Assembly: GCF_025772985.1 (NCBI RefSeq)
Contig: NZ_JAKMTB010000003.1
Coordinates: 124,001-188,000, forward strand
DNA from: Campylobacter sp. CNRCH_2014_0184h
GTDB taxonomy: Bacteria > Campylobacterota > Campylobacteria > Campylobacterales > Campylobacteraceae
DNA: 64,000 nucleotides
Reading direction: 5' to 3'
Shown here: piece by piece, positions 3,001 through 60,843 of the stretch
Layout: each line of letters opens with the position of its first letter
Position numbering within the stretch: the stretch's first letter is position 1
The notes under the pieces: model-generated
Told to the model about the DNA's origin: nothing
Seen by the model: only the letters and a program-made list of their open reading frames with translations
Databases searched by the model: none
Position numbers and translations under genes: made by a program

Positions 3001-4286
3001 CTCATAGTATTAACAAAGCTGGAGATATTCAAACTTTAGCCATACCTAAAGAATGTAAATTTATCCGATTTGGTTTGCGCATTCAAGGTGTTGGTAAATT
3101 TCAAATAGACAATCTGGTTTTAGATTTTCTAACCCCCCAGCCTTTTGCACTTCTTTCTAGAAGTAAAAAATTGGTATTAACTAAACAGTATCCTTCTTAT
3201 GATGATTTATATAAATACGGCTTTTTGCACTCAAGAATAAAGGCATATAAAGAAAAGGGTGTTTTGGTTGATGTATTTAGACTTAGCAATACACAAAGGT
3301 ATGAATGTAGAGAATTTGAAGATATTGATGTAATGACAGCCTCTAATGATGTTTTAGAAGAAACTTTGGCAAGTGGACAATATGACCATATTTTGATTCA
3401 TTTTTTAGATAAAAATATGTGGAATGTTCTAGAGAAATTTGTAGATAAAATCAAAATTACTGTTTGGATTCATGGTGCTGAAATTCAAATTTGGCAAAGA
3501 AGAGAATTTGAATTCGAAAGATATAGCGAAATGGAAATTCAAAGACAAAAAAAACTTTCTGATCAAAGAGTGAAATTTTGGACAAAAATTTTCAATGCAA
3601 ATTATAAAAATATGCATTTTATTTTTGTAAGTGAGTATTTTAAAAATGAAAGTTTAAGTGATTTGAGAGTAGTGTTAAAGCCCAATCAATACACTATTAT
3701 ACATAATCCTATAGATACTTCAATGTTTGATTATTTGCCTAAATCTCCAAATGATAGAAAAAAAATTCTTTCTATCCGCCCTTTTACCTCGAGAAAATAT
3801 GCAAATGATTTAAGTATCGAGGCTATTTTTGAGCTTAGCAAAAGAGATTTTTTTAAAGATTTGGAATTTTTTATAGCTGGTGATGGGGTCTTGTTTGATG
3901 AGTTAACTAGCAAATTAAATTCTTTTAAAAATATTATCATATATAGAGGTTTTTTAACCCAAAAAGAAATATCAAATTTACATAAACAATATGGTATATT
4001 TTTAAATCCTACAAGAATGGATGCTCAAGGTGTCTCTAGAGATGAGGCTATGTCGAGTGGTTTAGTTCCGATCACCAATAACATCGCAGCAGTTCCAGAA
4101 TTTGTAGATAATGAATGTGGAATTTTAGTAGAGCCTGAAAATGCAAAAGCATTAGCTGATGTAATCGAGTTTTTATATAAAAACCCAGATGAATTTATGA
4201 AATTATCTACAAATGCTGCAAAAAGAGTTAGAAAACAATGTGATAAAGATATGATTGTATCTAAAGAATTGGATATAATATTATGA
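3..4286 (+). CDS. FkbM methyltransferase / multi-domain glycosyltransferase fusion (5' end missing)
   Basis: The frame is open to the left window edge, so the first in-frame ATG at 18 is probably internal and the gene is truncated by the window. Residues are counted from that ATG. Residues 1-100 resemble the second half of an FkbM-type SAM-dependent methyltransferase (a 'DVEGME' strand followed by 'FLYIEA'). Residues about 155-300 are coiled coil, ending in a short 'LSYRIG' segment like the tail module of other proteins here. From about 369 ('MKIACIMDEFTYTS') lies a CgeB/DUF3880-like glycosyltransferase domain, clearly paralogous to the protein at 17767-18768. A beta-rich stretch near 930-1040 may be a carbohydrate-binding sandwich. 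From about 1043 to the end is a GT4-like glycosyltransferase with a 'NPTRMDAQGVSRDEAMSSG' donor-site motif. It overlaps the next gene by 4 bases. Capsule assembly is inferred from context; exact sugars are unknown. Confidence 0.75.
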   Translation, partial: CDIFKMSIELNGFKKIKLHEFGLSDKKETAILDNLNPENLGGQSLKIKDSGNIVLYPLDDIKFEKDISVLKIDVEGMEVKVLNGAINTIKKHRPFLYIEAISNVEFRKINVILEKLDYVYWNTFNATPTHLYYPKEQLKDKDILSNISYHKTLESYRITQSLNYSKRISSEISKIAEIVSKNSTDLYAKINALESQKEKWNEIELEQIKEISQLQSQKDKLEQDLQFHKEKLDTTLVNYAGMMARFKKQEILQKKLLVDNKIYQRKANEALSNFKDMSARSEKYRQEIIFKDNEIKRLENTLSYRIGNRIVNAKNIKNVILLPYHLYMEYKSFKSRRKNKNTLKQTNKIRKTIANSPNAIKQQFINKFDDIKNMKIACIMDEFTYTSFKYECDLLQLSPDNWRNEVIAFKPDLLFIESAWQGKDSLWKLKISGFSTELQELIKYCRENGIATVFWSKEDPVHFNTFLSIARSVDFVFTTDIDCIPKYKFYVGHEDVYCLPFAAQTKIHNPIEEFDRKDEFNFAGSYYLRYPQRQLDFENLISAIKLYKNISIYDRNFNNFHPHYSFPDCYKDMIIGNLPFNEIIKAYKGYKFGITMNTVKQSQTMFARRAFELIACNTFVVSNFSRALRNFFGDLVISSDDTNELKNKLKLACEDEMYYKKIKLNALRKVMKEHTYTDRLNFIASVVYKEQFESKHKFYILIHVNSQEEYIKALDIFYSQKENQGLQLLIYNDKKLKFQPNDQCIYFSELEELFKYIKNDKQAYFGMMDIKDYYNENYLLDLTLTLKYSNFNAFGKYSFYSFNDGEVYLENKDREYKKVKQLFITSSFVKVEYINKGLLSAFLNKEFSYQIENMFATDCFNYCKNGISLTKNQQEYVSSMDKVYSGISIKDLNISSNFKGVLKEAYETPDLIKMDAKFIYDNIEKPISSKVKFSFDDKSKFIIESKLSSEAHKYFYFKNSFTRETFNMVKNSQFLLQGIFSNEDFKTVFEFQDKNYQKISHSINKAGDIQTLAIPKECKFIRFGLRIQGVGKFQIDNLVLDFLTPQPFALLSRSKKLVLTKQYPSYDDLYKYGFLHSRIKAYKEKGVLVDVFRLSNTQRYECREFEDIDVMTASNDVLEETLASGQYDHILIHFLDKNMWNVLEKFVDKIKITVWIHGAEIQIWQRREFEFERYSEMEIQRQKKLSDQRVKFWTKIFNANYKNMHFIFVSEYFKNESLSDLRVVLKPNQYTIIHNPIDTSMFDYLPKSPNDRKKILSIRPFTSRKYANDLSIEAIFELSKRDFFKDLEFFIAGDGVLFDELTSKLNSFKNIIIYRGFLTQKEISNLHKQYGIFLNPTRMDAQGVSRDEAMSSGLVPITNNIAAVPEFVDNECGILVEPENAKALADVIEFLYKNPDEFMKLSTNAAKRVRKQCDKDMIVSKELDIIL

Positions 4287-5011
4287 AAAAAATTTGTATT
4301 TTTGGATCTTGTGTTAGTAGGGATATATTTGAGTATGATAAGCAAAAAAACTTTGAATTAATTGGTTATTATGCTAGAAGTTCTTTTGCTTCTTTATCTT
4401 CTAATGCTATGATAGAGCAAGATGTTCTTGATAATATACAATCGTCTTTTCAAAGACGCATGGTATTGCAAGATATGAATAAATCTTTTATTGATAATAT
4501 AAAAAGAAGTGATTTCGATTTTCTACTGATTGATTTTATCGACGATCGATTTCATTTCTATAAAATATCAAAAAATAATGTAGTTACAGTTTCAAATGAA
4601 TATAAAAAAGCAAAAGGAAAGTTGTATAGTTCTAATATGATTTATTCCCAAAGTCAAGAACATATTGATTTGTGGAGGAAAGGTATTGAAAAAATATATG
4701 ATGATTTATATATTATTCAAGATAAAATTATTTTAAATAAAGTATATTGGTCGGATGTTTTTTATAATGGAGATAAATTTTTAATTAATCAAGAAGAATT
4801 GATTAGTAATAATAATTTTTTAAAAGAACGATATGATGATTTTGTTAAATTCTTTCCTAAAATTAAATGCATAGAATATCCTAAAGATATGTTAGTTTTA
4901 GATCATGAACATAAATGGGGGGGGGCTCCTATGCATTATCATAGTGATGTTTATAAATATGCACTTAAAAAAATAGATTGGTTAAAAAGGGAAATTAATG
5001 ACAAACTATAA
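4283..5011 (+). CDS. DUF6270-like protein, phase-variable by a G9 tract
   Basis: This 242-residue protein begins with 'ICIFGSCVSRDIF', the signature start of the DUF6270 family, whose GSC-type motif recalls SGNH hydrolases. Near the C-terminus 'HEHKWGGAPMHYH' supplies conserved histidines likely to belong to the active site. The G9 tract at 4917-4925 encodes the WGG part of this motif. Adding or losing one G brings an early stop and removes the last histidines and about 25 residues, so the gene is ON at the length shown. It overlaps the genes on both sides (ATGA at the left, 14 bases at the right), which implies one transcript. The biochemical reaction is not known to me; modification of a capsule sugar is an inference from the neighbourhood. 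Confidence 0.75.
   Translation: MKKICIFGSCVSRDIFEYDKQKNFELIGYYARSSFASLSSNAMIEQDVLDNIQSSFQRRMVLQDMNKSFIDNIKRSDFDFLLIDFIDDRFHFYKISKNNVVTVSNEYKKAKGKLYSSNMIYSQSQEHIDLWRKGIEKIYDDLYIIQDKIILNKVYWSDVFYNGDKFLINQEELISNNNFLKERYDDFVKFFPKIKCIEYPKDMLVLDHEHKWGGAPMHYHSDVYKYALKKIDWLKREINDKL
4917..4925 (+). repeat. G9 homopolymer tract (phase-variation site)
   Basis: Nine consecutive G in an AT-rich background, within the coding region of the DUF6270-like gene. Only G9 (or changes by multiples of three) keeps the frame; +1 and -1 both reach stops within about 20 codons. Tracts of this kind are the standard phase-variation switches of Campylobacter surface-structure genes. Confidence 0.85.
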
Positions 5012-8000
5012 GGGTGTTTTTAAACAGATTGATTTAAAAAAAATTGATCATTATGATATAAAAAAAGATAAAGAAAGTTTTATTATAAATTTAAACAACA
5101 TTTTTCATATAGAATTTGTCGAATTTGAAATTCTCAATATGTTTGATATAAAGATATATTTTAGTGTAGATAAAGCAACTTGGATAGAATTTAAAAAAGA
5201 AGAATGTTTATTAATAAATGCCAATAAATATTCTTTAACATGTAGTGATAGGGAAAAATATCAATATATAAAAATTAATACTAAATTAAACAATATAAAA
5301 AATAAAAAAATTAATATATTTGTAAGAAAATTTCCTGGTTTAATGGTGGCGGCAAGAAGCGATGGTTTTGGTGCTAGATTAATGCCAATACTTAATGCAA
5401 TGTATTTAGCTGAGTATACAGGCTTTAAATTTGGTTTTGTGTGGAAAAGAAATGATAGGGATACTATTTTATCTGATGGTAATCAACACCAAGAAGTTGC
5501 TAAAACCCATCTCTTAGGTGAAAGCGATATCTTCTCTAGTGATTTTATTAAGCAATATTCATATACAGATAAGCTGGGTGTATGCATTAGAACTAAAACA
5601 AGTGTTGCTATTGAAGATTGGATGAATGAATTAAGTTGTGTTTGGGGTGAATATGTTAATTATGATACAGCTAGAAGAATTTTTGGAACTAAACCAATAA
5701 GACATTATCCAAAGCTTTGGAAAAAAATAAAATTTTCAGATTATATTCAAAAGGCTATTGATAAGGCGAATAATATAGTAAAAATTAATTTTCCAAATAA
5801 ATTTATTGCTATTCATATACGAAGTGGAGATATTGTTTATGATGAAAGAATAAAAAAGCTTGGTGTTGGTTTTGGTAAAGCAATGCCATTAGAAATTGCA
5901 ATAGAGCTAATAGAAGAAAATTTAAATAAAAATGAAAAAATAGTTTTATTCGGTGATGATTTCACGAGTTTGAGAGAATTAAAAAATCAATATAATATCA
6001 ATATAATCGAAGATTATATTGATGAACAATTTACAAATATTCAAAGAATGTTATTTGAAATAGTTTTTATGTCTAATGCAAAGGATATTTTTTCTGGACA
6101 TAGTAGTTTTTCTAGAGTTGCAAGTTATATTGGTTTAGGTAGGGAACCATCGTTTTATTTCCATATTTTTAATACAAATCAACAACTCAAAATACTGCAA
6201 AAACATACTTTATCTTGTTTTAGTAATTTACAAAAAGCGCATTCGTTATACCATTCTGCTATGTTGCATATTACAACAAAAACAAATTTTTCTAGCGCTA
6301 TTACTTTTTTAGAAAAAGCATCAAAAATAGACAGAAACAATTGTCTTTATATTTTATTGATGCTTTTTGTTTATTTGAAAATATTTGCTTTTGAAAAAGC
6401 AGAGAAAATTTTAAGTGAGAGTTTTTTTACTTATGAAGATTTTATAGAAAATTTACAATGTGGTATTTTATGTCTTGAAATAAAAAAAGAAATAGCAAAA
6501 TTAAGAAAAATTGAGCATTTTACAAAATTATCTGATTTTGCTTCTAATATCAAAAAGTATTTTGAGCAAAATTTTGAACAAATAGAAAAAGAAATAGTTA
6601 ATGATTTGATTGATGAATTAAAGCTGTTAAATCAAAATATAAATGATAAGAATAAAGAATATGCAATATTAAAACTAGAATTTCAAGAACAATCAGAAGA
6701 AAAGTGTTTATTAAAAAAGGATCTATTTAAAACGCAAGATTTATATAACTTTTTTGCTAGATACGGCTCAGCCAAAGCAAGAATTCAAAATCAACTCTCC
6801 TATAAACTAGGTCAAGCTATGATAGTAAATTCTAAATCTATACTAGGTTATATAAGAATGCCTTTTGTATTATCTTATATAAAAGATAAACACAAACAAG
6901 AACAAAAAAACTATCAAGAAAAAATAAAAAAAAATCCTTCTTTAAAGCTACCTCCATTAGAAGATTATCCTGATTATCAAGAAGCCTTAAAAGAAAAAGA
7001 ATGTTTAACTTATAAACTTGGTCAAGCTCTTATACAAGCTAACAAAAATTGGTATGGGGGGGGGTATATCAAGTTGCTGTTTAGTATAAAAAAATTAATA
7101 TCTCAATTTTCTAAATTTACATTAATAAACTATAAGGGTGTTTTTAAACAGATTGATTTAAAAAAAATTGATCATTATGATATAAAAAAAGATAAAGAAA
7201 GTTTTATTATAAATTTAAACAACATTTTTCATATAGAATTTGTCGAATTTGAAATTCTCAATATGTTTGATATAAAGATATATTTTAGTGTAGATAAAGC
7301 AACTTGGATAGAATTTAAAAAAGAAGAATGTTTATTAATAAATGCCAATAAATATTCTTTAACATGTAGTGATAGGGAAAAATATCAATATATAAAAATT
7401 AATACTAAATTAAACAATATAAAAAATAAAAAAATTAATATATTTGTAAGAAAATTTCCTGGTTTAATGGTGGCGGCAAGAAGCGATGGTTTTGGTGCTA
7501 GATTAATGCCAATACTTAATGCAATGTATTTAGCTGAGTATACAGGCTTTAAATTTGGTTTTGTGTGGAAAAGAAATGATAGGGATACTATTTTATCTGA
7601 TGGTAATCAACACCAAGAAGTTGCTAAAACCCATCTCTTAGGTGAAAGCGATATCTTCTCTAGTGATTTTATTAAGCAATATTCATATACAGATAAGCTG
7701 GGTGTATGCATTAGAACTAAAACAAGTGTTGCTATTGAAGATTGGATGAATGAATTAAGTTGTGTTTGGGGTGAATATGTTAATTATGATACAGCTAGAA
7801 GAATTTTTGGAACTAAACCAATAAGACATTATCCAAAGCTTTGGAAAAAAATAAAATTTTCAGATTATATTCAAAAGGCTATTGATAAGGCGAATAATAT
7901 AGTAAAAATTAATTTTCCAAATAAATTTATTGCTATTCATATACGAAGTGGAGATATTGTTTATGATGAAAGAATAAAAAAGCTTGGTGTTGGTTTTGGT

Positions 8001-8687
8001 AAAGCAATGCCATTAGAAATTGCAATAGAGCTAATAGAAGAAAATTTAAATAAAAATGAAAAAATAGTTTTATTCGGTGATGATTTCACGAGTTTGAGAG
8101 AATTAAAAAATCAATATAATATCAATATAATCGAAGATTATATTGATGAACAATTTACAAATATTCAAAGAATGTTATTTGAAATAGTTTTTATGTCTAA
8201 TGCAAAGGATATTTTTTCTGGACATAGTAGTTTTTCTAGAGTTGCAAGTTATATTGGTTTAGGTAGGGAGCCATCGTTTTATTATAAATATTATAGTAGA
8301 TATAAAATGTATAACATAGTAAAACAAAAAATACAATGTCATACGATGCATAGTTTACAGAAATCGTTTTCGTATTATTTTTTATTTCGTTTAGGTTATG
8401 CTTTGGAAAGAAAACAAACGGAGTTATTTCAATGGATTTTTAATGCCTGGAATTGTAATCAAAATAATGATTTATATAGGATCGGATTAGTTTTATTGGG
8501 TGTATTGTGCAATAAACATCAACAAGTGGAAAAAATTCTATCGCAGAAATTTATTAGTGATAATTTTTGGAATAACTATTATAAAAAAAGTTTTTTTAGA
8601 GAAATTTTTTTAGAGAAAATTAATGTGCAAAAAAATAATCAAAATACATTTCCAAATATTTGTAATGTAATAAAAAAAATGGTATAA
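4998..8687 (+). CDS. Tandem-duplicated GT11-like glycosyltransferase fusion protein
   Basis: This 1229-residue protein holds two copies of a 385-residue unit (residues about 3-387 and 711-1095). Each unit starts with a small beta-sandwich that resembles a discoidin-type fold and continues with 'ARSDGFGARLMPILNAMYLA' and 'IHIRSGD', reminiscent of the HxRxGD motif of GT11/O-fucosyltransferase-like enzymes. Between them lie a helical/TPR-like stretch, a coiled coil and a two-part 'SYKLGQA' module. The second unit has its own, different C-terminus. The halves are joined in frame only because the tract at 7056-7064 is G9; G8 or G10 would stop translation within about 10 codons and yield a roughly 695-residue single-unit protein. 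The ATG at 4998 follows 'aaaaaggga'. Transfer of a deoxy sugar in capsule synthesis is likely but the substrate is not shown. Confidence 0.7.
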   Translation: MTNYKGVFKQIDLKKIDHYDIKKDKESFIINLNNIFHIEFVEFEILNMFDIKIYFSVDKATWIEFKKEECLLINANKYSLTCSDREKYQYIKINTKLNNIKNKKINIFVRKFPGLMVAARSDGFGARLMPILNAMYLAEYTGFKFGFVWKRNDRDTILSDGNQHQEVAKTHLLGESDIFSSDFIKQYSYTDKLGVCIRTKTSVAIEDWMNELSCVWGEYVNYDTARRIFGTKPIRHYPKLWKKIKFSDYIQKAIDKANNIVKINFPNKFIAIHIRSGDIVYDERIKKLGVGFGKAMPLEIAIELIEENLNKNEKIVLFGDDFTSLRELKNQYNINIIEDYIDEQFTNIQRMLFEIVFMSNAKDIFSGHSSFSRVASYIGLGREPSFYFHIFNTNQQLKILQKHTLSCFSNLQKAHSLYHSAMLHITTKTNFSSAITFLEKASKIDRNNCLYILLMLFVYLKIFAFEKAEKILSESFFTYEDFIENLQCGILCLEIKKEIAKLRKIEHFTKLSDFASNIKKYFEQNFEQIEKEIVNDLIDELKLLNQNINDKNKEYAILKLEFQEQSEEKCLLKKDLFKTQDLYNFFARYGSAKARIQNQLSYKLGQAMIVNSKSILGYIRMPFVLSYIKDKHKQEQKNYQEKIKKNPSLKLPPLEDYPDYQEALKEKECLTYKLGQALIQANKNWYGGGYIKLLFSIKKLISQFSKFTLINYKGVFKQIDLKKIDHYDIKKDKESFIINLNNIFHIEFVEFEILNMFDIKIYFSVDKATWIEFKKEECLLINANKYSLTCSDREKYQYIKINTKLNNIKNKKINIFVRKFPGLMVAARSDGFGARLMPILNAMYLAEYTGFKFGFVWKRNDRDTILSDGNQHQEVAKTHLLGESDIFSSDFIKQYSYTDKLGVCIRTKTSVAIEDWMNELSCVWGEYVNYDTARRIFGTKPIRHYPKLWKKIKFSDYIQKAIDKANNIVKINFPNKFIAIHIRSGDIVYDERIKKLGVGFGKAMPLEIAIELIEENLNKNEKIVLFGDDFTSLRELKNQYNINIIEDYIDEQFTNIQRMLFEIVFMSNAKDIFSGHSSFSRVASYIGLGREPSFYYKYYSRYKMYNIVKQKIQCHTMHSLQKSFSYYFLFRLGYALERKQTELFQWIFNAWNCNQNNDLYRIGLVLLGVLCNKHQQVEKILSQKFISDNFWNNYYKKSFFREIFLEKINVQKNNQNTFPNICNVIKKMV
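5003..6159 (+). repeat. Copy 1 of a 1157-bp direct repeat
   Basis: Matches 7127-8283 at an offset of 2124 bases. The only difference I noticed is 6146 A versus 8270 G, which is silent. It covers the whole beta-sandwich plus GT11-like unit and ends abruptly at 6159, after which the two C-termini are unrelated. Confidence 0.9.
7056..7064 (+). repeat. G9 tract at the fusion joint of the duplicated glycosyltransferase
   Basis: Nine G encode three glycines at residues 687-689. At G9 the two units are read as one protein. At G10 the frame reaches TAG, and at G8 TAA, each within about 10 codons. The tract therefore decides between a one-unit and a two-unit product. Confidence 0.85.
7127..8283 (+). 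repeat. Copy 2 of the 1157-bp direct repeat
   Basis: Second copy of 5003-6159. Its left edge reads 'attaataaac' where copy 1 has 'attaatgacaaac', so a 3-base difference removes the ATG that starts copy 1 and keeps the fusion frame open. Near-identity at the DNA level implies a recent duplication or ongoing gene conversion. Confidence 0.9.
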
Positions 8688-16199: not shown

Positions 16200-17715
16200 C
16201 AGCTTATGTGCATATAGGAATACTTAAAACGGGAACAACAAGTATTCAGAATTTTTTACATTACAATAATGAAGCTTTAGCAAAGCAAAATGTTATATAT
16301 TCACAGAGTGTTGTCTTTGAAAATAAAACAGAAAATGAATATTAGCATTGGTTTTTTGTATCAGTTGTAGATAGTATACTAAAAAATAACAATGAATATT
16401 TAGTTATATTAAGTGATGAAATAAAAATTGCAAATTATTTAACTGGATATTTAGCGGTAAAATGGAAATGATTACAGGATGAAATTAAAAAACATTGATG
16501 TAGTTTTTAATTTCATCAGAGGGAATTTTATTGAGAATAAGTAATTATCAAAATGAATACATAGTGTAAATATTCAATAAAATTTTTATTGAGCTAGGTT
16601 TTAAGAAAGTTAAATATGTATATATTATACCTTAGATCTCAAGCTGATATGAAAACTAGTTGGAATTCTACAGTCCTGTATACGGGTGAAAAATAGATAG
16701 AAATTACTTTATAAATTTTGCACAAGATATGAAACATTAAAATCACTTGATTATCAAAAAATGACTTCTTGTTTTAATAAAACTCAATTAATAGTAAGAC
16801 TCTTTGATAAAAACAAATTCTATCAGGGAGATTTACTAAAAGATTTTATACATAGAGCATAGGTTTAAAATGGGATGATAATTTTACAATACCTTTAAAA
16901 CAGAATGAAAGTTAAGATTTAATAGGTTTTGAGTTGAGAATAAGATTAGATTAAATGATTTATAAATCTAGGGAAGAATTCGTGCTATCTAAAATTATTT
17001 GTGTTCTAGGGATCATTGTGTAAAATATGCACCTCCTAAAAGAAATTATTAATCTTATATAGATTATTTTGAAGAATCAAATGAATGGGTAAGAAAAGAA
17101 TTTTTTTCCATATAAAGAAAAATTATTTCCCAAGAAAGATTTAGCTAATTATAAAGAAAATTATGAACTTAAAGAAATGAAATAAAATAGCTGAATTTAT
17201 AGCTGATATGGTTAAACCTAAAAACCAAAGTATTGTAGATAAGCATCATATTATCCAAAACCTAAATAATACTCTTAATAAAACCATAAAAAAGACAATA
17301 TTATAAATTTCAATATAAACCATATCAATCAATTGCAAAGTAATATACAAGAAAAATCAACTCAACTTAATCAAATCCAATCAAAACTATCTTTTCAAAT
17401 TAAATATGATACAGCCAAATCTCGTATCCAAAACCAACTCTCCTGTAAAATAGGTCAAGTTATGATAGTAAGCTCAATCTTTCTTAGACTACTTAATAAT
17501 TTCATACAAACAAGAACAAAAAAATTATCAAGAAAAAAATAAAAAGATTCTTCTTTAAAATTATCCCCCCCCCCGCTAGAATCTTATCTTGATTGTCAAG
17601 AAGCTTAAAACTTAAAAACCATCTTTCTTATAAACTAGGACAAACTCTTATACAAGCTAATAAAACTTGGTATAAGGGTTGGTATATCAAATTTGTATTT
17701 GAAGTCCGGAAATTA
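16196..17715 (+). pseudogene. Decayed sulfotransferase-like gene with a remnant SYKLGQA tail
   Basis: The start is intact: an ATG overlapping the previous stop, then 'HIGILKTGTTSIQNFLHYNN', the PAPS-binding KTGTTSIQ motif of sulfotransferases. A TAG at about 16343 interrupts it, and more than ten further stops and frameshifts follow. Still readable pieces include 'VRLFDKNKFYQGDLLKDFIH' (near 16798) and 'YFEESNEWVRKEFF' (near 17070). From about 17400 the sequence aligns with the two-part module found at residues about 590-700 of the protein at 4998, again with broken frame and with a C10 tract at 17565-17574. This is an old loss: the gene once encoded a sulfotransferase with the shared tail. 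No intact gene lies between 16200 and 17766. Confidence 0.8.
17565..17574 (+). repeat. C10 homopolymer tract in a decayed gene
   Basis: Ten consecutive C, within the remnant module of the pseudogene. Its position in the module (before the 'LES..D.QEA' part) differs from the G9 tract at 7056. It can no longer switch a product, because the frame is broken at many other points. Confidence 0.8.
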
Positions 17716-17766
17716 AGAAAATATAATATATAATTTATATTAAAAAATATTTTAGTGTGAGTAAGC

Positions 17767-18768
17767 ATGTTAAAAATAGCCTTAATTACCGATGAATTAA
17801 CCTATGCTTCTTTGGAAGCAGAGGATGGAGTAATTATAAAAAATATAACTCCATTGAATTATAAGTTTATATTTTATTTTTGGAAACCTGATTTTTTATT
17901 TGTTGAGTCAGCTTGGCATGGCTTTAAAAATAAATGGAAGTATAAAGTCGCTTCATACCCTGATTATCCAAGAAGAAATAATAGAAAATTACAAAAGCTT
18001 GTTAATTTTGCAAAAATGTTAGATATTCCTACGGTATTTTGGAATAAAGAAGATTATGTGCATTTTGATAGATTTATAGAAAGTGCGAAATTGTTTGATT
18101 TTATATTTACCGTTGATGAAAATTGTATATCAAAATATAAATCTTATGTAGGAGAAAAATCTTATGTGGATGTTTTGCCTTTTGCTGTTCAATCCAAATT
18201 TCATAATTTTACCGGATTTAATTTTATATCCACTAAGGCTAATTTTGTTGGAAGTTATTCAAAGCATATACACAAAAAAAGAAGATTTTATCAAGATATG
18301 ATGTTTAAATTATCGTCCAAGATTAATCATCTTGATGTTTATGATAGAAATTCAAATAGAAAATCTATAAATTATAGATATCCAAATTTTAAAGGTATGC
18401 AAATTTATTCTTCGGTTGAGTATGAAAAAACTGCAGAAATATATAAAAAATATCTAATTTCTTTAAATGTTAATACTATAGAAAATTCCCCCACTATGTT
18501 TTCAAGAAGACTTATAGAGATTATAGCTTGTGGAGGTGTAGCTATTACTAATCATACACTAGCTGTTGAAAAATATTTCAAAGACTATTGCTATTCATTT
18601 CAAACCGAGGAAGAATTAAAAGATTTGCTGTATAGGTTTAAAAAAGATGGTTTGAATGAAGATGATAAGATAAGGTTAAAAAAAGGAGCAGAATTTATCG
18701 CAAAAAATCATACGTGGAAGCAAAGATTGGAACAAATTATAGATACTATAGGTATAAAAAAATGCTAA
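17767..18768 (+). CDS. CgeB/DUF3880-like glycosyltransferase
   Basis: This 333-residue protein is alignable along its length with the middle domain of the large protein at 3-4286: 'IALITDELTYASLE', 'KPDFLFVESAWHG', 'IPTVFWNKEDYVHFDRF' and 'TMFSRRLIEIIACGG' all have counterparts there. The C-terminal 'MFSRR..E..ACGG' plus 'HTW..R' end is typical of the CgeB/DUF3880 glycosyltransferase group. It is separated from the pseudogene by a very AT-rich stretch with several TATAAT-like boxes (17720-17745), so it may have its own promoter. It overlaps kpsC by 7 bases. The transferred sugar is unknown. Confidence 0.77.
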   Translation: MLKIALITDELTYASLEAEDGVIIKNITPLNYKFIFYFWKPDFLFVESAWHGFKNKWKYKVASYPDYPRRNNRKLQKLVNFAKMLDIPTVFWNKEDYVHFDRFIESAKLFDFIFTVDENCISKYKSYVGEKSYVDVLPFAVQSKFHNFTGFNFISTKANFVGSYSKHIHKKRRFYQDMMFKLSSKINHLDVYDRNSNRKSINYRYPNFKGMQIYSSVEYEKTAEIYKKYLISLNVNTIENSPTMFSRRLIEIIACGGVAITNHTLAVEKYFKDYCYSFQTEEELKDLLYRFKKDGLNEDDKIRLKKGAEFIAKNHTWKQRLEQIIDTIGIKKC

Positions 18769-20747
18769 ATGGTTATTGTTTTTATATAAACAATTTTATT
18801 CAAATATTTTACAAAAAAAACTTCATAGGATGGGGAAGAAAACGTACTGGCAGATGGGCTTCTTTTTTATATAAAAAATTTAATGGTTCTTTGATTTTGC
18901 TAGAAGATGGCTTTTTGCGCTCATTAAATTTAGGTGTAGAAAATAGTCCAAGTTTTTCTATCGTCAAAGACGATATAGGAATTTATTACGATGCGAATGC
19001 ACCATCTAAACTTGAAAAGATTTTAAATACTTATGAGTTTAGCTCTGAAGAGCTAGAGCAAGCAAAAAAAGCTATAGAGCTTATAAAAACAGAAAAACTT
19101 AGCAAGTATAATAATAATCTTTGCGTGCCAAAAGAGCTTTTTAACACTAACGAAGAACGCGTATTGATCATCACTCAAGTAGCAAATGATGCTTCATTAA
19201 AATTTGGCTTAGCTGATAATTTCTCAACTCAAGATATTATAAATGAAGCTATCAAAGAAAATCCAAATGCTAAAATATATATTAAAATTCATCCTGATGT
19301 ATTAAGCGGTAAAAAACAAAGTGATTTTGATGTACAAGATTTACCAAGCAAATGTGTAGTTATAAAAGAAAATTATAATCCCATAGAATTGCTAAGTCAT
19401 TTTAAGAAAGTCTATACTAAAACTTCTGGCATGGGTTTTGAAGCTTTGATGTTAGGATGTGAATGCGTGTGCTATGGTATGCCATTTTATGCAGGCTGGG
19501 GTTTAACTCAAGACAAGCAAGCATGTAAAAGAAGGCTTAAAAAAAGAACCCTAGAAGAGGTTTTTTATGCTACTTATATTTTATATAGTGAGTATTTTAA
19601 TCCTTATTTAAATCAAAAAAGTGATATTTTTGATACTATTCATACCCTAGCAAAGTATAAAAAGATAGAACAAGCTAATTCAAATACTTTGTATTTTTTA
19701 GGTTTTTCTAAATGGAAAAGAGAGTTTATAAAACCATTTTTTAAAGCAAAAAGCAATAAGATTATTTTTTTAAATTCACTTGATGAACTTTATAAAGTAA
19801 ATTTAAATTCTGAAGATAAAATTTTCATTTGGGGTAAAAAATATGATAAAACTTTACTAGCTAAAGATTTTAGCAATGAAATTTTCTTAGTAGAAGATGG
19901 CTTTTTACGCTCAGTTTTTTTGGGTTCAGATCTTACACGCCCTTTTTCTTTAATAGTAGATAGCAAAGGTTTGTATGTTGATCCAAGCAAGCCAAGCGAT
20001 TTAGAAGATATTTTGCAAAATCACATTTTTGATGAGAGTTTAAAACAAAGAGCCAAAAAATTAATTACTACCATCACGCAAAATAAATTTTCAAAGTATA
20101 ATGGCTTAAAACATGAAAAATTAAATTTTAATACAAGTAAAAAAATCATCTTAATCCCTGCTCAAGTAGAAGATGATGCTTCTATGATCTTAGGTGGTGC
20201 AGGTTATGATACCTTAAAACTTTTACAAAGTGTAAGAAAGGCCAATGAAAACGCCTTCTTAGTTTTTAAACCTCACCCTGATGTTTTAAGCGGTAATCGT
20301 AAGGGTTTAAAAGATAAAAGCATTATTTTAAAATACTGTGATGAAATTATAGAAAATGTTAGTATAGATAGTGCTATCAATGCGAGTGATGAAGTACATA
20401 CTATAACCTCTACAAGTGGTTTTGACGCTCTTTTGCGTGGTAAAAAAGTAGTGGTGTATGGCAAGCCTTTTTATGCAGGTTGGGGTTTGACAAGTGATTT
20501 ACATGAAATTCCAAGACGCACAAGAATGCTTAGTTTAGAAGAGCTTGTTGCTGGCGTTTTGATCCTTTATCCAAGATACATCCATCCAAAAAGTAAAAAT
20601 TTATGTGAAGTTGAGCTTGCATTAGATATAATGTTAAAAATGCAAAAAGATTATTTTTCTAAATTTTATTTGCGTTGGTTTATGGATATAAGAATTTATA
20701 TATTAAGAAAAATAAGAAGATTAATAGAATTTATTTTAATTAGATGA
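18762..20747 (+). CDS. kpsC: Capsule polysaccharide beta-Kdo transferase KpsC
   Basis: KpsC builds the poly-Kdo linker between phosphatidylglycerol and the capsule chain in ABC-transporter-dependent capsules. The 661-residue protein shows the expected two glycosyltransferase modules: 'GWGRKRTGRWASF' and 'LLEDGFLRSLNLG' in the first, and 'IWGKKY' and 'LVEDGFLRSVFLG' in the second, each followed by a 'PFYAGWGLT' motif. I chose the ATG at 18762 because it overlaps the end of the upstream gene in the usual way; the GTG at 18714 would add 16 residues read from inside the upstream gene. It is followed by kpsS with a 4-base ATGA overlap. Confidence 0.92.
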   Translation: MLNGYCFYINNFIQIFYKKNFIGWGRKRTGRWASFLYKKFNGSLILLEDGFLRSLNLGVENSPSFSIVKDDIGIYYDANAPSKLEKILNTYEFSSEELEQAKKAIELIKTEKLSKYNNNLCVPKELFNTNEERVLIITQVANDASLKFGLADNFSTQDIINEAIKENPNAKIYIKIHPDVLSGKKQSDFDVQDLPSKCVVIKENYNPIELLSHFKKVYTKTSGMGFEALMLGCECVCYGMPFYAGWGLTQDKQACKRRLKKRTLEEVFYATYILYSEYFNPYLNQKSDIFDTIHTLAKYKKIEQANSNTLYFLGFSKWKREFIKPFFKAKSNKIIFLNSLDELYKVNLNSEDKIFIWGKKYDKTLLAKDFSNEIFLVEDGFLRSVFLGSDLTRPFSLIVDSKGLYVDPSKPSDLEDILQNHIFDESLKQRAKKLITTITQNKFSKYNGLKHEKLNFNTSKKIILIPAQVEDDASMILGGAGYDTLKLLQSVRKANENAFLVFKPHPDVLSGNRKGLKDKSIILKYCDEIIENVSIDSAINASDEVHTITSTSGFDALLRGKKVVVYGKPFYAGWGLTSDLHEIPRRTRMLSLEELVAGVLILYPRYIHPKSKNLCEVELALDIMLKMQKDYFSKFYLRWFMDIRIYILRKIRRLIEFILIR

Positions 20748-21922
20748 ATTTAAGTAAAAAGTTAAAAAAATTTTCTGGTAAAAATGTTTTATTGCTCCAA
20801 GGACCTGTGGGAGGATTTTTTCGTAAAATTGCTACAAAAATTCCAAAAGCTAAGGTTTATAAAGTAAATTTTAATGGTGGAGATTTTTTCTTTTATCCTT
20901 TTAAGAGTATTAATTATACTAAAAGTTTAGCCAAGCTTGAAGACTTTTATAAAAAGCTTTTTGAAGAAAAACAAATTCAAGTTATCTTAATGTATAATGA
21001 TTGTAGAAAAGTACATGAAATAGCCATTAATGTAGCTAAACAAATGGGTATTGAAGTATGGATTTTTGAAGAAGGTTACATAAGACCAAATTTTATTACT
21101 TTTGAAAAAGATGGAGTGAATGCAAACTCAACTCTACCAAGAGAAAAAGAATTTTATCTAAGTCAGAAAAAATTTGATAAAGATTTTAAATTTAAAACTT
21201 TCTCAAGCACTTTTAGAAATATGGCCTTTTCTTCATTTTTATACTGGCTTTTTGCTTTTTTATTTTCTTGGTATTTTAATAATTCTTTACATCATAGAAG
21301 TTTAAAATTATTTGACTTTTTACCTTGGCTTTGTTCAGTATATAGAAAAAACAAATACAAAATCACAGAAAAGAGTTTAAATGAAAAAATTCTTTCCCTA
21401 AAACAAAAGTATTTTTTAGCTATTTTACAAGTGCATAATGATACTCAACTATCTCATCATTATAAAAAAACTACAGAAAAATTTATAGAAGAGGTAATCA
21501 TCTCTTTTGCTAATCATGCTAAAGCAAAGTCTTATCTAGTTTTTAAGCACCATCCTATGGATCGTGGCTATAGGGACTATGCTAAACTTATAGAAGATTT
21601 GAGCTTAAAATACAATGTCGAGGGTAGAATTTTATATGTACATGACTTACACTTACCTACGCTCTTAATCAATACAAGAGGTACTATAGTCATAAATAGC
21701 ACAGTAGGACTTTCTGCTTTATATCACAATAGTCCTTTAAAGGTTATGGGAAAAGCTTTTTATGATATAGAAGGTTTGACTTATCAAAAAAGCTTGCATG
21801 CTTTTTGGAAAGAATGCAGAGCATATAAACCTGATGCAGTTTTACATGCTAAATTTAGAAATTATGTGATATATAAAACCCAAGTCAATGGGAATTTTTT
21901 CAAAAATACTAGTTTAGATTAA
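20744..21922 (+). CDS. kpsS: Capsule polysaccharide Kdo transferase KpsS
   Basis: KpsS adds the first Kdo to phosphatidylglycerol, after which KpsC extends the linker. The 392-residue protein has 'LLLQGPVGGFFRKIA' at the start, 'EEGYIRPNFIT', 'LQVHNDTQL', 'KHHPMDRGYRDY' and 'NSTVGLSALYH', all typical of the KpsS/capsule biosynthesis family. It is cytoplasmic or peripheral to the inner membrane. It ends the plus-strand capsule operon and overlaps the convergent gene at 21919 by four bases. In C. jejuni the kpsC-kpsS pair (Cj1414c-Cj1413c) lies at the same edge of the capsule locus. Confidence 0.92.
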   Translation: MNLSKKLKKFSGKNVLLLQGPVGGFFRKIATKIPKAKVYKVNFNGGDFFFYPFKSINYTKSLAKLEDFYKKLFEEKQIQVILMYNDCRKVHEIAINVAKQMGIEVWIFEEGYIRPNFITFEKDGVNANSTLPREKEFYLSQKKFDKDFKFKTFSSTFRNMAFSSFLYWLFAFLFSWYFNNSLHHRSLKLFDFLPWLCSVYRKNKYKITEKSLNEKILSLKQKYFLAILQVHNDTQLSHHYKKTTEKFIEEVIISFANHAKAKSYLVFKHHPMDRGYRDYAKLIEDLSLKYNVEGRILYVHDLHLPTLLINTRGTIVINSTVGLSALYHNSPLKVMGKAFYDIEGLTYQKSLHAFWKECRAYKPDAVLHAKFRNYVIYKTQVNGNFFKNTSLD

Positions 21923-23427
21923 ATTTTCTTTTTATAGTTTTTTGCAATTTTTTTCAGTTTAAAAGGCAAGCTTAAATAGCCTATTTTAAAAGGAGTTCTT
22001 GAAGCTTGTAAAAGTGCATTACCTAAAAGATAAGGCAAGTGTGTTTTGGCTATTTGAGCGTGTTTATAGTCTGCATAAGCTTTTAGTGGTGGTAAGTTTT
22101 TTTGATCTTTTTGATTTTTAAAATGCTCTTTTTTGATTTTTTTTAGTTCAAAAGGTATTTTAAAATACCCTAGACAACTTTTGCTATTTTTCATGATAGC
22201 TTCCCCAAGTTTATAGCTTAGTCTTTCTTTTATCCTTAAGCTAGCTCCATAAAGTTTATTGTTTTGATGGATAAATATCTCATATTCGTTTTTTAAGCCT
22301 TTGTGATTTAAAAAACGCAAAAGATTATGATTTTGACTTTGTAAAAATGTTTGCATATCAAGTTTTTTTAGTTCATGGTATTCTAGCACTAATTCTTTAT
22401 AAAATGCTATAGGTGGTATCAAAAGCTCATAAGCATTTGTAAGTTGAATTTTACATTCAATTTTTTTATTATTATCATTTTCTAAAAGTAAAATTCCTAT
22501 TAAGTCCACATAATCAAGTCTTGGTGTTTTTTCATTTGCTATGCTTAAGCCCGAACTTTCCTCGCTTTGCTTGATAATTTGTGTATTAACATACAAAAAG
22601 GTTTGCTCATCACAAATTGCTTTTTCATTTTGTATATCTTGAAAAGTATTGATAAGTCCAAAATTTTTTACTAATTTAAAAGATGAGTTTTCAATGCTTA
22701 TAGATGATATAGCATGAGTTGATGAGTTAGTGTGATTCCAAGTGTGTATACCTAAGATTTGATAGTTTTTTAACTCTTTTGGAAAAATGATTTTTTCATT
22801 AGCTTTAATCTTTGTAGTTTTTTCACAAAAAAATGAGTTTTTATGCTCTATTTTAGTTGAACTTGAGGGCGCAAAGATGTGAAATTTTCTTTTTGAGCAA
22901 ATGATCTTTTCTTTGGATTTTTTAAAGTTATGTAAATTTTTAATGATGTTTTTACCAAGCTCTTGCATAGCTAGTGGCATAGGGTGGAATTTATAGTTTT
23001 GATCAAAATCATAAAGATTATTTTTTTGATAGTAAAAGTCTACATCGATTAGATTAAAACCATAATAAGCACAATTTTTCCTATGAGCTTCATTGATAGC
23101 TTTTGATTTGTCATTGTAAGCTGGTATGGGGAGTATAAGCACTATGATAATTTTGTTTGCTTTGTAAAGTTCTTCGTAAAAATAATCAATATTTCTAAGT
23201 ATAATATTTAAACTCATAGGGCTTAAATAATCATTGATATTTGATTCACTGACGAGAAAATCACTTTTGTTTATAGTTTTTTCATGGCGTATTAATTCAT
23301 AAAGATTTTGTAAAGAAGTGCTAAGTCCCAAAGCGTAATTATGTAGTGTAATGTCTTTATTTTCAAGACCTATTCTAAGACCATTTTTAACTACACTATT
23401 GCTGCCACCTAGTAAGATTATATTCAT
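21919..23427 (-). CDS. SGNH-type protein with a two-part SYKLGQA tail module
   Basis: This 502-residue protein begins 'MNIILLGGSNSVVKNGL', a GxSN block, and has 'SESNINDY' and, near residue 155, 'DFDQNYKFHP', which together resemble the GDS/N/DxxH blocks of SGNH hydrolases and acyltransferases. The middle is beta-rich. The last 110 residues repeat the module 'LSYKLGEAIMKNSKSCLGYF' and 'LPYLLGNALLQASR', also found in the protein at 4998 and in the pseudogene at 16196. It runs against kpsS, with convergent ends overlapping by four bases. A role in capsule modification (acyl or phospho ester) is inferred from the module and position only. Confidence 0.65.
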   Translation of the reverse strand: MNIILLGGSNSVVKNGLRIGLENKDITLHNYALGLSTSLQNLYELIRHEKTINKSDFLVSESNINDYLSPMSLNIILRNIDYFYEELYKANKIIIVLILPIPAYNDKSKAINEAHRKNCAYYGFNLIDVDFYYQKNNLYDFDQNYKFHPMPLAMQELGKNIIKNLHNFKKSKEKIICSKRKFHIFAPSSSTKIEHKNSFFCEKTTKIKANEKIIFPKELKNYQILGIHTWNHTNSSTHAISSISIENSSFKLVKNFGLINTFQDIQNEKAICDEQTFLYVNTQIIKQSEESSGLSIANEKTPRLDYVDLIGILLLENDNNKKIECKIQLTNAYELLIPPIAFYKELVLEYHELKKLDMQTFLQSQNHNLLRFLNHKGLKNEYEIFIHQNNKLYGASLRIKERLSYKLGEAIMKNSKSCLGYFKIPFELKKIKKEHFKNQKDQKNLPPLKAYADYKHAQIAKTHLPYLLGNALLQASRTPFKIGYLSLPFKLKKIAKNYKKKI

Positions 23428-58020: not shown

Positions 58021-60843
58021 ATGGCATTAGCAAGAAGAAATTTTCTTAAGCTTGCTGGTATTGCTGGTCTTGGAAGTGCGGCTTTTGGTAGTGAAAACAA
58101 AGCTATTAGAGCTGCAAGCGAACAAGAAGTAGCAAATCCTTATCCAGATTCTAAGATTGTTAGAACAATCTGTAGTATCTGTAGTGCAGGCTGTGGAATT
58201 AAAGCAGAAGTACAAGATGGAGTTTGGGTGCGTCAAGAAAACGCTATAGAACATCCTATTTCTCAAGGATCACACTGCTGTAAAGGGATAGATCAAATCG
58301 ATCTTACTAAATCAAAACAGCGTATTAAATATCCTATGAAAAAAGAAAACGGTAAATGGGTGCGTTTAACTTGGGAGCAAGCTATCAATGAAATTGGTGA
58401 TAAAATGCTTGAAATCCGTAAAGAAAATGGACCTGATAGCGTTATGTTCTTGGGTTCGGCTAAATTTAATAACCAACAAGCTTATTATTTTAGAAAATTT
58501 GCAGCATTTTGGGGTACTAACAATATAGACCACGTTGCTAGAATTTGACACAGCGCAACAGTCGCCGGTGTGGCGAATACATGGGGTTATGGCGCTATGA
58601 CAAATCATTTTGGTGATGTGACTAAACATTCAAAAATGATGATTATTTTTGGTGCAAATACTGCTGTGGCTAATCCTATTGGATTTAAACACTTATTGCA
58701 AGCAAAAGATCGTAATAATGCTAAATTGGTAGTTGTAGATCCTGTATTTACAAAAACTGCAGTACATGCTGATGAATATGTAAGAATTCGTCCAGGTACA
58801 GATATAGCTTTAGTTTATGGTATGCTTCATTTGATCTTCAAAAACGGTTGGGAAGATAAAGAATTAATAAAAACCAGAACTTATGGGGTTGAAGAAATAA
58901 AAGCAGAAGCTGCTAAATGGACTCCTGAAGTTGTAGAAGATGTAACAGGTGTTCCGGCTGCTCAACTTGAAAAAATCACAAGAATGCTAGCTACAATCAA
59001 ACCTGCTACGCTATTTTGGGCTTTAGGTATTACTCAACACTCAGTAGGTAGCTCTAACACAAGAATTCTAGCTATCTTGCAACTTGTTCTTGGTAATATA
59101 GGTAAACCAGGCGCAGGAACAAACATCATCAGAGGACATGATAATGTTCAAGGTGCTACTGATATGGGTTGTTTGGCTGATACTTTACCAGCTTATTATG
59201 GACTTGATGATAATGCTTGGAATCACTTCTCTAATGTATGGAATGTTGAGAGAGAGTATTTAAATTCAAGATTTTATTCTAAAGAATGGATGCATGAAAA
59301 AGGCTTTTCGCTAGCAAAATGGTGGCAAGGCGTTTTACATGAAGAAAAAACTTATTCTAACTCACCTATCCGCGTACTTTGGGTGCAAGGAACAGGTATT
59401 ACTTCTATGGCACATACGGTAAAAATTCAAGAAGCACTTAAAAAACTTGATATGATCGTAATTGCTGAGCCTTTTGTAAATGAAGTAGCAGTTTTAGCAG
59501 ATCGTCCAGATGGTATTTATATTATTCCTGCTTCAACCCAATTTGAAACAGAAGGTTATGTAACAGCGACTAACCGTGCTATGCAATGGCGTTCTCAAGT
59601 AGTAAAACCAATTTATGAAAGTAAAGAAGATCAAGAGATTATGTTTGCTTTTGCTAAAAAATTTGGTTTTTATAAAGAATACACTCGTGGTATGAAAATG
59701 GAATTAAAAGATCATAAACTTGTACAAACAAGAGATGATAATGATGATAATTTCATATGGCCTGATGATGCTACAAGAGAAATGAGTAATGGTCTTTTAA
59801 GTATAGGCTTAAGAGGTATTTCAGCTGAACGTCTAAGAAAACACCAACAAAATTGGGAACATTTTGATCCTGATACTCAAAGAGGTATTGGCGGTGAAGT
59901 TAAAGGTGAATATTATGGTTTACCTTGGCCTTGTTGGGATAAACAACACCCAGGTACTTCTATCATGTGGAATACAGATATTCCTTATGAAGAAGGTGGT
60001 ATGGGCTTTAGAAATCGCTTTGGTTTAGAGCATGATGGGCATTCTCAATTAGCAGATGAGGCCTTTACTCCAAAAGGATGTAAAGTTAAAGGTGGCTACC
60101 CGCAAATCACTAAAGAAAATATCGAAAAAGTGTTTAATATCAAACTAAGCGATAAAGAAAAAGAATTAATGGGCGCTAGCTGGAGCACAGATATTTCAGG
60201 TATAATCTTAGAAAAATGTAGAGAAAAAAGTGCTTGTTGTTTAGGTAATGCAAGAGCGAGAATGAAAGTTTGGGAATTTGCTGATCCTATTCCACTACAT
60301 AGAGAGCCTATTCACTCGCCTCGCTGGGATTTGGTTAAAAAATATCCTACTTGGGGTGATCAAGAGAAAAACTTTAGGGTTGAGAGTAAATTTATTAGCG
60401 AGCAACAAAAAACAGATTGGAGTAAAGAGTTTCCAACTATTATTTCAAGTATGCGCTTAGTAAATTTAAGTGGCGCGGGTATGCTTGAGAGAACTAGTAA
60501 ATATCTTGCTGCAATCACACCTGAGATGTTTGCTAATGTGCACCCTGAACTTGCTTTAAAATATGGTATAAATGATGGTGATATGATGTGGATTCACTCG
60601 CCACAAGGTACTAAGATTAAAGTAAAATGTGTGCATAATCATTCAGTTACACCAGATAGAATTTGCTTGCCTTATAATTTTGCAGGTATTATGCAAGGAG
60701 TGGATTTAAGTTACAATTATCCTGAAGGTACTAAGCCTTATACTATAGGGGAAAGTTCTAACACGGTTACTAACTATGGTTTTGATATAAATACGCAAAT
60801 TTCTGAGTTTAACGCAGGGCTTTGCAGACTTGAAAAGGCTTAA
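58021..60843 (+). CDS. fdhA: Formate dehydrogenase catalytic subunit, selenoprotein
   Basis: The gene reads through an in-frame UGA at 58546-58548 to give 940 residues with selenocysteine at position 176, in the motif 'DHVARI-Sec-HSATVAG', where formate dehydrogenases have Sec or Cys. The N-terminus is a Tat signal ('ARRNFLKLAGIAGLGSAAFG'), followed by a [4Fe-4S] site 'CSICSAGCG' (51-58). The molybdopterin or tungstopterin domains follow ('GANTAVANPIGFKH', 'VVVDPVFTKTA', 'GNIGKPGAGTNIIRGHDNVQ'). A hairpin at 58562-58576 behind the UGA is the likely SECIS. The periplasmic enzyme oxidises formate to CO2. Annotators that treat UGA as stop would split this gene in two. Confidence 0.95.
58546..58576 (+). 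promoter_or_regulatory. UGA(Sec) codon and SECIS hairpin of fdhA
   Basis: UGA at 58546-58548, then 13 bases, then a perfect 5-base stem TCGCC/GGCGA (58562-58566 with 58572-58576) with loop GGTGT. A GGU loop a short distance after UGA is what bacterial SelB recognises. Confidence 0.85.

Follow-up and report, generated by a model that had tools for sequence, protein, structure and literature searches.

The window, a stretch of 64,000 nucleotides from Campylobacter sp. CNRCH_2014_0184h (contig NZ_JAKMTB010000003.1, positions 124,001 to 188,000), holds a single reading frame in which two nearly identical copies of a putative glycosyltransferase unit follow each other, separated by a tail with a run of nine G. 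The features of this region, in window coordinates, are as follows.

4283-5011, forward strand: upstream DUF6270 gene, with a G9 tract of its own at 4917-4925, truncated by G7, G8, G10 or G11
4998-8687, forward strand: reading frame holding both units, 1229 aa
5003-6159, forward strand: repeat copy 1, predicted CBM32/discoidin-like domain followed by a FUT8/NodZ-like glycosyltransferase domain
6160-6794, forward strand: initial part of tail A, with homology to tail B over about 100 residues, then a linker rich in charged residues
6795-7118, forward strand: KLGQ tail module with two YKLGQ repeats, matching positions 6-122 of NF058596 (CJJ1420_fam)
7056-7064, forward strand: G9 tract between the two copies, placed on the tail's conserved WY(K/G)GGYIK motif
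7119-7127, forward strand: joint, lacking both the stop codon with which tail A would be expected to end and the ATG of unit 2
7127-8283, forward strand: repeat copy 2, same protein sequence as copy 1, without a start codon
8284-8687, forward strand: tail B, homologous to the initial part of tail A but diverged from it, with neither KLGQ module nor tract

The two repeat copies measure 1157 bp each at an offset of 2124, and their sole mismatch (6146 A / 8270 G) falls on a third codon position and is silent (Glu, GAA/GAG); both lie in one frame of 1229 codons. The two copies, the single silent difference and the shared frame are all as a first, sequence-only reading had described them. The rest of the genome yielded no further copy of the unit, and no close relative was confirmed in the GTDB contig collection, from which the genome itself or very near ones may have been left out. 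Unit 1 starts with ATGACAAACTATAAG, its ATG at 4998 overlapping the stop codon of the DUF6270 gene (5009-5011). The latter gene also looks phase-variable from its sequence, every length other than G9 at 4917-4925 cutting its protein near the C-terminus.

Neither Pfam nor NCBIfam gave a family name for the unit. Using a profile built from 26 relatives, we found similarity of the N-terminal ~110 residues to fucolectin/discoidin-type chains (E 2e-4) and of the catalytic part to FUT8 (E 0.003). Consistently with this, the AlphaFold2 model of the unit (pLDDT 84) had FUT8, POFUT1 and NodZ as best Foldseek matches (E 1e-8 to 1e-5), together with CBM32, and the H-x-R-x-G-D region was conserved, with R275 invariant and H273 nearly invariant in the 26 relatives. 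TM-scores of the fold matches reached only about 0.4 over the two-domain model, which makes the superfamily likely but not the exact specificity. The unit is thus likely to consist of a CBM32/discoidin-like domain and a FUT8/NodZ-like (GT23-type) transferase domain, an assignment made at the superfamily level; it resembles the fucosyltransferases FUT8, POFUT1 and NodZ in predicted fold and weak profile similarity, but has about 17% identity to them, carries the CBM32/discoidin-like domain in front and has an activity that is only predicted. GDP-fucose transfer is the activity suggested by the neighbouring GDP-mannose pathway genes (manC-type, GDP-mannose 4,6-dehydratase and GDP-mannose synthesis matches), and these, together with two Capsule_synth (KpsC/KpsS-type) genes at 18714-21922, make a capsule locus with a GDP-6-deoxyhexose donor a reasonable inference. 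The stretch 16200-17766, which has no ORF of at least 90 aa and contains a decayed KLGQ tail (17412-17693, 71% DNA identity) with a C10 tract at 17565-17574, looks like the remains of a polysaccharide gene.

The KLGQ tail module was present in all 49 genus genomes searched and is common to many surface-polysaccharide genes of Campylobacter; it overlaps the NCBIfam family CJJ1420_fam, which is named O-methyl phosphoramidate transferase, and in other species KLGQ segments also link the domains within multi-domain proteins. Aligned tails share the sequence W-Y-K-G-G-Y-I-K, with codons such as AAG GGT GGG for KGG, and in many of them the nine bases of this KGG motif are poly-G. We collected 35 distinct tract-bearing tails, that at 7056-7064 included; in the 34 others, the tract at the KGG motif ranged from G8 to G11, the native (G9-type) frame always stopped 20-32 codons past the motif Trp, and the non-native frames ended after 6-22 codons. 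An exact pattern search recovered 30 tails, among them that of the 4998-8687 gene, in 16 of the 49 genomes (2 with G8, 21 with G9 and 7 with G10), while the reversed-pattern control gave no matches. A G9 run would be expected by chance about 0.008 times per 64 kb at the given composition and is therefore unexpected, and the whole genome has about 19 tracts of at least 8 G or C, as counted from overlapping matches. The tract had been taken for a device of the joint; it is instead a recurrent feature of the tail module. Since the other 34 tails all stop within 32 codons and the stop is absent only here, an ordinary tail tract now gates an extension of 540 codons. A second tail in the same genome (88% DNA identity) has G11 and is out of frame; its gene (L134, 79-1836) has an unrelated N-terminal part that, by eye, resembles the KLGQ-tailed gene at 21919-23427.

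With tract lengths varied in silico, G6, G9 and G12 join both units in a product of 1228-1230 aa, and G7, G8, G10 and G11 stop translation after 694-697 residues, leaving the frame of unit 2 open but unreached, as in a fusion/separation coding sequence. The stop codons lie at 7087 with G8 and at 7082 with G10, in agreement with the earlier statement that these two lengths end the protein after unit 1; the accompanying statement that only G9 connects the units holds among G8-G10, whereas in general the rule is modulo 3. Within the first gene the tract comes late, some 20 codons short of the position at which homologous tails end, and the frames yield different C-termini (...GGGISSCCLV with G8, ...GGGVYQVAV with G10, and a run of 540 further codons with G9), one of them merging with the downstream coding sequence, as in C-terminal phase variation. 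By this frame arithmetic, and with unit 2 devoid of a start codon of its own, the phase of the tract selects between a one-unit and a two-unit product, as had been proposed. Independent translation of unit 2 is unlikely, because no in-frame ATG or GTG occurs before 7263, about 46 codons into the unit, and the in-frame TTG (7074) and CTG (7077) precede the joint, directly behind the tract; judging from the sequence, use of the rarest starts (ATT, ATA) is conceivable.

The closest relative of the unit (about 40% identity), in genome G031, lies directly behind a tail gene with G11; some 20 codons into this relative there is a further G9 tract, which appears to be out of phase. A fused pair was looked for in this genome and not found, the tail gene ending there in an overlapping stop; its KLGQ tail (L033, 10011-10186) overlaps the start of the unit homologue. 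The arrangement is a precedent for placing a unit of this kind, immediately after such a tail, under the control of a tract.

How the two units came to share one frame can be traced in part from the joint. A close tail homologue (L041) ends in ...KNWYKGGYIWLWFEIMKLKKIYRKEID, and the matching ...KNWYGGGYIKLLFSIKKLISQFSKF of the 4998-8687 gene runs straight into unit 2. The counterpart in unit 2 of ATTAATGACAAACTATAAG in unit 1 is ATTAATAAACTATAAG, which would fit a loss of three bases, among them part of the start codon. Aligned with the start of copy 1, the joint reads ATTAAT, a 3-base gap and AAACTATAAG against ATTAATGACAAACTATAAG; this six-base match is suggestive only, since random pairs would show it in about 0.2% of cases if the gap must be exactly 3 and in 1.3% if it may be anything from 0 to 6. 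At the other end, DNA identity drops at once past 6159/8283, from 99.9% to 60%. Tails A and B, described earlier as different, are indeed of unequal length and distinct sequence, yet homologous over the first ~100 residues (local score 67, against 55 for the best of 300 shuffles). The two adjacent near-identical copies, 1157 bp with one mismatch, are what a recent tandem duplication would leave, but the identity stops short of the tails, and a tandem duplication is accordingly uncertain. Such an abrupt end of identity between homologous tails favours gene conversion or a chimera between older paralogues, and homogenised or chimeric paralogues seem to fit the sequence better than a simple duplication. 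Comparable events were found in relatives. In the closed genome G025, a perfect 590-bp repeat forms the 5' parts of two adjacent, separate family genes, followed by divergence (L038, 7174-7763 and 9142-9731, the 3' end of the first gene containing the start of the second copy). In genome G064, neighbouring genes have a common 613-bp 3' part at 98.9%, and the KLGQ tails of three neighbours (L123, 3971-4583, 6215-6826 and 8384-8694) are 97-99% identical, which points to tail homogenisation.

Several known systems share parts of this arrangement. In Helicobacter canadensis HCAN_0660/0661 (PMC2823697) and Neisseria gonorrhoeae NGK_1211/1212 (PMC5320596), C-terminal phase variation with tract-dependent fusion similarly involves a poly-G or other repeat near the 3' end, one of three frames merging with the next gene; the partner there is a different, separately annotated coding sequence (an 82-aa ORF in H. 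canadensis), whereas here it is an identical copy of the catalytic unit without its own start codon. Seven fusion/separation coding sequences of C. jejuni NCTC 11168 (Cj0031/32, Cj0170/71, Cj0628/29, Cj1144/45, Cj1325/26, Cj1335/36 and Cj1677/78; PMC1899501) likewise have a homopolymeric tract in a long frame that decides whether two ORFs are read as one, but these are treated as single genes cut by the tract, while unit 1 is a complete enzyme unit and unit 2 a second copy of it. The adjacent phase-variable MeOPN transferases cj1421/cj1422 (PMC3907429, PMC4965091) are close in other respects, being neighbouring capsule transferases with identical or very similar regions and G9 tracts, and the KLGQ tail matches CJJ1420_fam; unlike the fused units, they remain separate genes, whose tracts both lie at +87, close to the start. 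Among the 29 tracts of NCTC 11168, that of cj0045 is the only one located 3'-terminally in its reading frame (PMC4965091). For the C. jejuni capsule gene cj1426, switching rates of 2-3 per 100 have been reported (PMC8437040). Finally, N. meningitidis pglB2, as cited in PMC5320596 (Viburiene et al. 2013), is described there as fused to a downstream phosphoglycosyltransferase gene, also a tract-mediated fusion of two sugar-transferase coding sequences but by way of a poly-A tract and between different proteins. The parts are thus individually known; what is new is the gating of a partner identical to the first catalytic unit, by a tract that derives from a shared tail.

We consider it moderately probable that the phase-variable tail of a capsule-locus glycosyltransferase gene lost its stop and ran into a second copy of the unit, slippage then producing a mixture of forms with an effect on dose, processivity or anchoring. 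With G9 (also G6 and G12), the ribosome would read the complete KLGQ tail and then unit 2, so that the 1229-aa product has the same catalytic domain twice; at other tract lengths it would meet a stop about a dozen codons or less from the WY motif and release unit 1 with its tail cut short. Strand slippage in this run of G would generate a population mixture of one-unit and two-unit forms. Tract variation in living cells is plausible judging from relatives, the length differences among tails of other genes and species suggesting that the tract may be mutable in the strain studied as well. The arrangement itself would be recent, the product of recombination in which paralogous genes in tandem took part and the exchange ended, on one side, just inside the start codon. 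That one and two units would be different enzymes is weakened by the identity of their catalytic domains, which does not imply a change in chemistry or a new linkage and makes dose or processivity likelier; most likely, what the switch would change in a single fucose-type transfer to the capsule is dose, processivity or anchoring, and not the linkage. There is no obvious gain in two identical catalytic domains.

The strongest rival to this reading, unlikely in our estimate and yet one to be taken seriously, is that the real role of the tract, as in the other tail genes, is to switch the C-terminal tail of unit 1 (its final ~20 residues, which may contact the membrane or a partner), unit 2 being an incidental by-product of recent recombination with no selected function. 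It agrees with the 34 other tract-bearing tails, all of which stop early and gate nothing downstream, and with the 99.9% identity of the copies, which indicates a young event or recent conversion. No second case of two units in one frame was found among the 153 family genomes searched; conservation thus lends no support to a selected function, and the fusion may be a transient by-product. Against this, the frame of unit 2 is intact over 540 codons with its key residues kept, and the unit gene of the nearest relative, behind just such a tail, is itself tract-bearing. A second rival concerns the called tract length. Poly-G runs are error-prone, G8 and G10 occur in other tails of the genus and the second tail of the same genome is out of frame at G11, so that G9 might be a consensus error or a minority state, with most cells at G8 or G10 and unit 2 usually a silent gene fragment; we hold this to be very improbable, the called length being the open one here and the native-frame length in 21 of the 30 tails from the exact search.

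The remaining rival is an assembly artefact. The assembly is a draft of 30 contigs with one 16S gene on a 5949-base contig, which makes collapsed rRNA operons and short reads probable; a repeat of 1157 bp exceeds usual short inserts, and a short-read assembler could on these grounds have duplicated or mis-joined the stretch. Such an artefact is improbable, though less so than a miscalled tract, for the right edges of the copies continue differently, a SNP 13 bases inside separates them, the joint lies between unique sequences, and comparable perfect repeats are found in closed genomes. A left-R-M-R-right graph with one loop has only one linear path, so that the repeat could still be resolved, with a presumed number of R-M passes. 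A search of the genome for MCP domains, meant to reveal further long repeats that the assembler had handled correctly, gave seven genes, a result that weighs neither for nor against an artefact.

Phase variation has mostly been catalogued as ON/OFF, and the outcome predicted for the fused gene is a changed number of catalytic domains in one enzyme. If such tails vary in length in living populations, a whole class of 3'-end tracts that ON/OFF surveys are unable to score properly would need to be read again, and the path from tandem paralogues to a switchable fusion protein would become directly traceable. More generally, and only tentatively, a mobile tail module with its poly-G on a conserved GG codon motif might have spread among Campylobacter surface-polysaccharide genes as a general C-terminal switch that, on loss of the stop through recombination, becomes a switch for the next unit and yields one- and two-domain enzymes at random within a clone; we regard this extension as possible but rather doubtful.

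Two further observations concern other genes. The P450 of the studied genome is 98% identical to that of L114 (NZ_NFOE01000074.1), titled C. jejuni isolate_S4, with C. volucris next at 91%, and the species label of NZ_NFOE01000074.1 may therefore be wrong; by the same P450 identities, the studied strain probably belongs to the C. lari group. At 58021-60843, a gene resembling the formate dehydrogenase alpha subunit appears as two ORFs split at about 58548-58570, presumably by an in-frame TGA that is read as selenocysteine.
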